A stretch of 64,000 nt of DNA from Alphaproteobacteria bacterium (GTDB taxonomy: Bacteria; Pseudomonadota; Alphaproteobacteria; Reyranellales; Reyranellaceae). The notes beneath the pieces were generated by a model. The model was not told the origin of the DNA. It made no database searches and saw only the letters and a program-made list of their open reading frames with translations. The stretch lies in assembly GCA_019635875.1 (NCBI GenBank), contig JAHBYP010000001.1, positions 1-64,000 of the forward strand, in the 5' to 3' direction. Within the stretch, counting starts at the first letter, position 1. Each line of letters starts with the position of its first letter. The position numbers were made by a program, and so were the translations under genes. Of this stretch, positions 19,720-20,592 are shown in pieces.

Positions 19720-19745
19720 AGCGCCCCCGACTTGGCGGGGGCGCT
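19720..19745. terminator. Probable bidirectional terminator between rmuC and glycine-zipper genes
   Basis: A perfect 10-base-pair stem (AGCGCCCCCG / CGGGGGCGCT) with a 6-base loop lies 7 bases after the rmuC stop and 15 bases before the end of the convergent gene. The T-run is weak (TTCGTC). Confidence 0.75.
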
Positions 19746-19760
19746 TCGTCGATCGTCCGA

Positions 19761-20054
19761 TCAGTAGCAGTAATTGCCGCCGTAGTCGCAGCGTGCCGGA
19801 GGCGGCGGATAGCCGTAAGGCTGCTGCGGTGGCGGATATGCCGCAGGATATCCCGCAGGCGGCGGTGGATAGCCGTAGGGCTGCTGCGGTGGCGGATAGT
19901 CGTAACGCTGCGGCGGCGGCGAGGGCGTTGTCGCCGCGCCGAGCACGGCGCCGCCGATGCCGCCGATCACCACGCCCGGCACGATGCCCAGACCCGTCGT
20001 GGCACCCAGTGCCGCGCCGCCGCCGGCGCCGATCAGGCCACCGGTCTTCACCAC
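19761..20054 (-). CDS. Glycine-zipper, Pro/Tyr-rich small protein without its own signal peptide
   Basis: 97 residues from GTG 20054: a glycine-zipper hairpin (TGGLIGAGGGAALGATTGLG...GIGGAVLGAAT) and a C-terminal tail of repeated PPPQQPYGYPPPP units ending in CDYGGNYCY. It matches the zipper of the lipoprotein encoded just upstream but lacks a signal sequence. The frame is continuous with that upstream gene, separated only by its TAG stop and three codons. It is either expressed by reinitiation or readthrough, or is half of a gene broken by a nonsense mutation. The DNA encoding the tail is itself repetitive. Confidence 0.6.
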   Translation of the reverse strand: MVKTGGLIGAGGGAALGATTGLGIVPGVVIGGIGGAVLGAATTPSPPPQRYDYPPPQQPYGYPPPPAGYPAAYPPPQQPYGYPPPPARCDYGGNYCY

Positions 20055-20063
20055 GGCCGCGCC

Positions 20064-20318
20064 CTAGTAGCGGCAGTAGTTGTTGTAGTAATCGCAGCGT
20101 GGCTGCGGCGTCGTCGCCGCGCCGATCGCGGCGCCGCCCAGGCCGCCGACCACGGCGCCCGGCACCACGCCGAGGCCCGTCGCCGAGCCGACCACCGCAC
20201 CGCCGCCCGCGCCGATCAGGCCGCCGGTGACGGCACGCTCGCCGGGGGTCTCGCCGCAGGCGGCAACCGCCAGCACCAGCGGCAGGCTCATCACGCCAAG
20301 ACGCAGGGACTTCAACAT
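20064..20318 (-). CDS. Glycine-zipper lipoprotein
   Basis: 84 aa with a lipoprotein signal ending VAAC (Cys21), then a glycine-zipper region (GGLIGAGGGAVVGSATG...GGLGGAAIGAAT) and the short tail CDYYNNYCRY. Probably an outer-membrane or periplasmic lipoprotein of the YMGG/glycine-zipper group. It ends in TAG, after which the same frame continues into a second zipper module (19761-20054) with the same CDY...YC(R)Y-type ending. The promoter should be in 20319-20400. Confidence 0.75.
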   Translation of the reverse strand: MLKSLRLGVMSLPLVLAVAACGETPGERAVTGGLIGAGGGAVVGSATGLGVVPGAVVGGLGGAAIGAATTPQPRCDYYNNYCRY

Positions 20319-20592
20319 GACACGCTCCTATGACGGCCGGCCTGACGCCGGCGGAGATAAAGGATGAACGCCTGGGAGAACGTGCGTGAGCGCCGGCCCC
20401 CATGCGCGGTCACATCGTCAACGGTGGCGCCGGACGTACGGTTCCCGCCAGCGTAGGGGAACCGGCGCCGAACGGATTGTGGTCAAGCTGTGGCGCGCCT
20501 GCCGCGCCCGGCTTCACGGCGGGCCACACAGAGCGTCGAGCAGGCGATGGACCGCGCACCAACCGCGGTCTGCTTCGAAGGCTGCACCAACG
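20319..20592. other. Intergenic region without a supported gene
   Basis: About 270 bases upstream of the glycine-zipper lipoprotein and downstream of the SRPBCC gene. Short open frames here have no recognisable domains or ribosome sites. Presumably promoter and leader of the lipoprotein. Confidence 0.5.

Follow-up and report, generated by a model that had tools for sequence, protein, structure and literature searches.

The small gene pair described here is best read as a tandem pair of glycine-zipper lipoprotein genes, in which the first gene, ORF1, ends at a genuine TAG and the second, ORF2, has lost its export signal in this lineage through an in-frame deletion. We assign this reading, which is drawn from sequence comparison, a probability of roughly 86%. 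Both genes lie on the minus strand of the window, i.e., the whole stretch of 64,000 nt from a Reyranellaceae genome that was analyzed. The initial annotation had instead proposed that the TAG might be read through to yield one two-module lipoprotein. In the genome of a sister species the second gene is intact, lies in another frame and carries an export signal of its own, which speaks against that proposal.

Anatomy of the gene pair

ORF1 (20064..20318, minus strand) encodes a glycine-zipper lipoprotein of 84 aa, runs from an ATG to TAC TAG, and is preceded by a Shine-Dalgarno-like AGGAG (20325..20329, minus strand) recognized from the sequence. Its N terminus, MLKSLRLGVMSLPLVLAVAAC, was read by eye as a signal peptide with the lipobox AVAACG (AAC preceding the glycine), followed by a zipper (TGGLIG..GAATTP) and a tail ending in CDYYNNYCRY (RCDYYNNYCRY in full). 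The TAG stop (20064..20066, minus strand) overlaps a weak Shine-Dalgarno-like TAGGG ahead of ORF2 and is followed by an intercistronic spacer of 9 nt, GGCGCGGCC (20055..20063, minus strand), after which ORF2 opens with a GTG in the same frame. ORF2 (19761..20054, minus strand) comprises 97 aa up to a TGA stop, and consists of a zipper and a Pro/Tyr-rich tail with the ending RCDYGGNYCY, the last nine residues being CDYGGNYCY. With a signal peptide and a lipobox Cys taken as the marks of a lipoprotein, ORF1 carries both, whereas ORF2, starting with MVKTGGLIG, carries neither. The anatomy given in the initial annotation, with two zipper modules in one frame, a TAG between them, a GTG nine bases on and no second signal peptide, was thus confirmed from the sequence. 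Its claim of a continuous frame also held, as no other stop occurs until the end of ORF2, but the product obtained by reading the TAG as X has 185 residues and not about 183. Within the Pro/Tyr tail of ORF2, positions 19797-19921 of the window hold an imperfect 27-nt tandem repeat of 4.4 copies, the length of which differs between the window and the sister genome G002.

The similarity of the two modules is real, since their BLOSUM62 local score of 186 is far above the scores of 1000 ORF2 shuffles (mean 37.3, sd 6.7, maximum 63). A tail motif, CDYxxNYC(R)Y, is common to ORF1, ORF2 and both genes of the G002 pair. In a tree built on 44 columns, these four pair genes share one side of a branch with a support of only 20/0, while the two ORF2 copies cluster at 85/89, the window copy having an unusual letter composition. 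The tree cannot establish ORF1 and ORF2 as mutual closest relatives. Of the earlier suggestion of a tandem duplication, the part that stands is the presence of two adjacent related genes with a shared tail motif; mutual closest kinship is beyond what the tree can show.

Using an anti-Shine-Dalgarno sequence, duplex energies of −7.7 kcal/mol (window) and −9.1 kcal/mol (G002) were obtained for ORF1, and the TAGGG of ORF2, found in both genomes, was weak at −4.9 and −3.9 kcal/mol, respectively. A terminator-like GC-rich hairpin (19720..19745, minus strand) is located 3′ of ORF2, between this gene and the convergent rmuC, and is found in G002 as well; the stretch after ORF2 folds at −32.9 kcal/mol in the window and −31.9 kcal/mol in G002. 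With ORF2 and rmuC converging on it from either side, the hairpin may terminate both. The pattern scan left it unflagged and found no promoter-like site, so that a single transcript carrying ORF1 and ORF2 is something we infer.

The intact copy in the sister genome and the wider family

G002 belongs to the same genus as the window genome, and its gene pair lies on contig JAFAZJ010000056.1 (loci L046 and L080 are this same contig). Here, the first gene is 94% identical to ORF1, retains the signal peptide with its lipobox, and also ends in CRY-TAG. The TAG is thus kept, where the initial annotation had suggested looking for a sense codon in homologues. The second gene opens with a GTG 10 nt past the TAG, hence in a different frame, and has its own signal peptide and lipobox. 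Its protein starts with VLRSLTAAALALPLVVSLAACGDNPGERALTG, and a longer stretch including the full signal peptide and the lipobox reads VLRSLTAAALALPLVVSLAACGDNPGERALTGAAIGAGSG. In the protein alignment of the two ORF2 copies, the start is kept (MVK in the window, MLR in G002), a gap of 27 residues follows, and the alignment resumes at TGGLIGAGGG. The segment missing from the window (codons 4-30) corresponds to the signal peptide, the Cys and the first mature residues. At the DNA level, CGGCCGTG around the GTG and the flanks are conserved, with one gap of 81 nt and a 1-nt indel in the spacer. The putative scar of this 81-nt (27-codon) in-frame deletion is located between codons 3 and 4 of ORF2 (20045..20046, minus strand). 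Because the spacer measures 9 nt in the window and 10 nt in G002, the shared frame of ORF1 and ORF2 can be attributed to a difference of a single nucleotide, a coincidence expected in one out of three cases.

Since only one orthologous pair was found, the direction of the change leans on the intact state of the G002 copy and of the paralogues. A deletion in the window lineage is most likely, rather than a gain in G002. The ancestral state would have been a two-gene unit, with ORF1 as an intact small lipoprotein and ORF2 as a second, separately initiated one. In the window lineage, codons 4-30 of ORF2 would then have been removed and the frame kept. ORF1 would be exported and lipidated, taking its place in the envelope in the form of a zipper hairpin. 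Any ORF2 product translated from the GTG would be a remnant that is not exported; it would probably be broken down or stay behind in the cytoplasm or the inner membrane.

Substitution rates were compared between the window and G002. The dN/dS values were 0.17 for ORF1 and 0.33 for ORF2, the latter from an alignment that sets the first three codons unlike the protein alignment; for the zipper part they were 0.06 and 0.46, respectively, and full-length rmuC (498 codons) reached 0.19. The contrast suggests a weaker constraint on ORF2 than on ORF1, though it falls short of significance (Fisher p 0.09 in the zipper comparison and 0.19 for the whole genes) and combines periods from before and after the deletion. 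In ORF2, 97 codons stay open and the tail is conserved, so that decay is at most a possibility.

When the two-module frame was used as a query, matches were obtained in 41 of 61 genomes, and G002 was the sole other genome with close relatives of both modules next to each other. No uninterrupted two-module match occurred among the matches listed; the only other one of nearly that length among them, in G001, holds three stops. With the zipper DNA as a query, each of the 75 family genomes searched gave matches, and long matches to both halves occurred in G002 only (among the matches listed). A search of genome contigs with the two-module protein, from which records of the window genome or near it were possibly excluded, gave no relative. 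A zipper pattern was scanned on both strands of 20 rmuC loci, made up of 8 of the 13 loci of a first set and 12 loci from an RmuC alignment scan of contigs, with the class-level loci L053-L057 outside the scan; the 20 loci contain duplicates, one G002 contig and one G003 contig (L047, L081) each being counted twice. Zipper genes beside rmuC were found in two genomes, the window's own and G002. Within the stretches scanned, none appeared in G003, which is of the same genus, or at the remaining rmuC loci.

Tandem arrangements as such are already seen elsewhere in the family, as judged from sequence. At L040, L041, L042, L070 and L075, there are likewise two adjacent, co-oriented small zipper genes. 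Altogether, 13 tandem loci (G002 included), picked for two close matches or a similar hint, provided 26 zipper genes; a signal-peptide-like N terminus was present in all of them and a lipobox Cys in 25, with a pattern that itself required a lipobox region. Dropping this requirement at 16 loci gave 28 matches and no further signal-less copy, with one match lacking the Cys (L076), although this looser pattern overlooked the second gene of the G002 pair, which was already known. L077, L078 and L079 hold one zipper gene each and are outside the count of 26. The window's second gene, with neither signal peptide nor lipobox, differs in this respect from the other tandem loci read, which keep both except for the one Cys at L076. 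There (849-1115, reversed strand, genome G065), a Trp replaces the lipobox Cys in one of the tandem zipper genes, which reads as another sign of the loss of an export anchor in a tandem copy.

In the window's own genome (G000), the ORF1 query gave 8 matches, the two modules of the window included; others lie at G000:C3:352946-353603 (L070), G000:C3:342524-342727 (L079), G000:C1:1059768, G000:C6:22975 and G000:C5:539538. The paralogue at L079 has a long tail of GGYGGGYP repeats.

Decoding of the TAG and alternative explanations

With regard to the decoding machinery, release factor RF1 is present in the window genome (503 bits, over the cut-off), while the best PylS score of 28 bits falls far short of the cut-off of 178. 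In the controls of the PylS search, some match was found in 13 of 14 genomes, one of them above the cut-off. A CTA anticodon is absent from the 43 tRNA genes found, with the restriction that the model could miss a strongly diverged tRNA. A conserved in-frame extension past the stop, as would be expected of readthrough, is not seen, the second module of G002 being in a different frame. Taken together, the TAG between ORF1 and ORF2 reads as an ordinary, genuine stop. Readthrough and recoding were rejected on the frame in G002, the homologues, the presence of RF1, the tRNAs and PylS. An originally single gene with both modules, later split by a nonsense mutation, was rejected too, because the G002 copy consists of two genes in two frames.

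It is very hard to credit, then, that readthrough of the TAG is frequent enough to be of use and gives a two-module lipoprotein beside the single-module form, even if the shared frame runs on to the end of ORF2 and the loss of the ORF2 signal peptide makes such a fusion structurally sensible. G002 provides its second module with a separate signal peptide in a different frame, none of the matches listed from the 61 genomes is stop-free across both modules, and the homologues read are all single-module lipoproteins, an outcome that the initial annotation had itself named as contrary to its proposal. Only slightly less improbable is a gene fusion caught midway. In this view, ORF2 has lost its own signal and come into frame with ORF1, leaving the TAG as the last barrier between a pair of single-zipper lipoproteins and one with a double zipper, and some of the second module might already be exported as a fusion through readthrough at a low level. 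The missing 81 nt could also be an artefact of assembly or sequencing, with the true ORF2 having a normal signal peptide. The region is GC-rich and repetitive, and the species is represented by a single genome; however, a collapse of similar modules should delete a whole unit and not the signal-peptide segment alone, and the assembly consists of 17 contigs at 100% completeness, which makes this explanation quite improbable.

Somewhat more room, while still unlikely, is left for ORF2 as a functional, non-exported zipper protein made from its GTG, residing in the cytoplasm or, as a hairpin without a lipid anchor, in the inner membrane. The deletion spared the open frame, the GTG and the TAGGG, and a hydrophobic zipper persists (19-residue KD maximum of 1.95). 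In E. coli, 203 gene pairs have spacers in the range of +9 to +12 nt; transcripts are characterized for 201 of these, of which 194 are on polycistronic messages, and in such pairs initiation is likely to be independent or linked in some other way (PMC10666635). For ORF2, a start or restart of translation at the GTG is plausible and would yield a separate protein of 97 aa, not a two-module lipoprotein. Against a function without export, all 26 genes read at the other tandem loci have retained an N terminus that resembles an export signal, and a deletion stays in frame with a chance of one in three regardless. The structural model of ORF2 (mean pLDDT 50.1), with one helix and no hairpin, lends no help and is uninformative at that confidence. 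The deletion of the export signal from a former lipoprotein gene remains the preferred reading of ORF2.

Family assignment and meaning of the pair

The zipper of ORF1, approximately 40 residues long, aligns nearly end to end with two Pfam profiles, PF13441 (Gly-zipper_YMGG) and PF13488 (Gly-zipper_Omp), but the scores of 22.8 and 22.5 bits fall short of the curated cut-offs of 28.9 and 25, respectively. ORF2 reached 14 bits with PF13441, below the curated cut-off as well. At E <= 0.1, PF13441 matches four of the four members of the two pairs and PF13488 two of them. The AlphaFold model of ORF1, based on 4 sequences, places helices at residues 25-47 and 51-68 with a mean pLDDT of 68.8. An envelope location is most likely for this lipoprotein, with its zipper as a putative hairpin.

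In being a small lipoprotein with a predicted hydrophobic, glycine-rich hairpin, ORF1 resembles the SlyB-type outer-membrane lipoproteins. SlyB itself carries a glycine zipper. Compared with solved structures, ORF1 gave no convincing sequence match (best E 0.2) and no fold match at E <= 0.001, and SlyB was not matched, so the likeness to SlyB is one of analogy. SlyB is described as a lipoprotein ringing outer-membrane proteins under stress (PMC13067283, PMC13082787). By analogy, this would be the closest functional model on offer. General literature searches returned no work on this gene pair.

For the interpretation of such loci, the comparison with one sister genome explains an in-frame amber codon between two modules without recoding, and it comes with a warning that a shared frame alone is poor ground for inferring readthrough. 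Within the family, the pair would be a small example of how a clean in-frame deletion can strip a tandem lipoprotein gene of its export signal and leave the remaining frame open.
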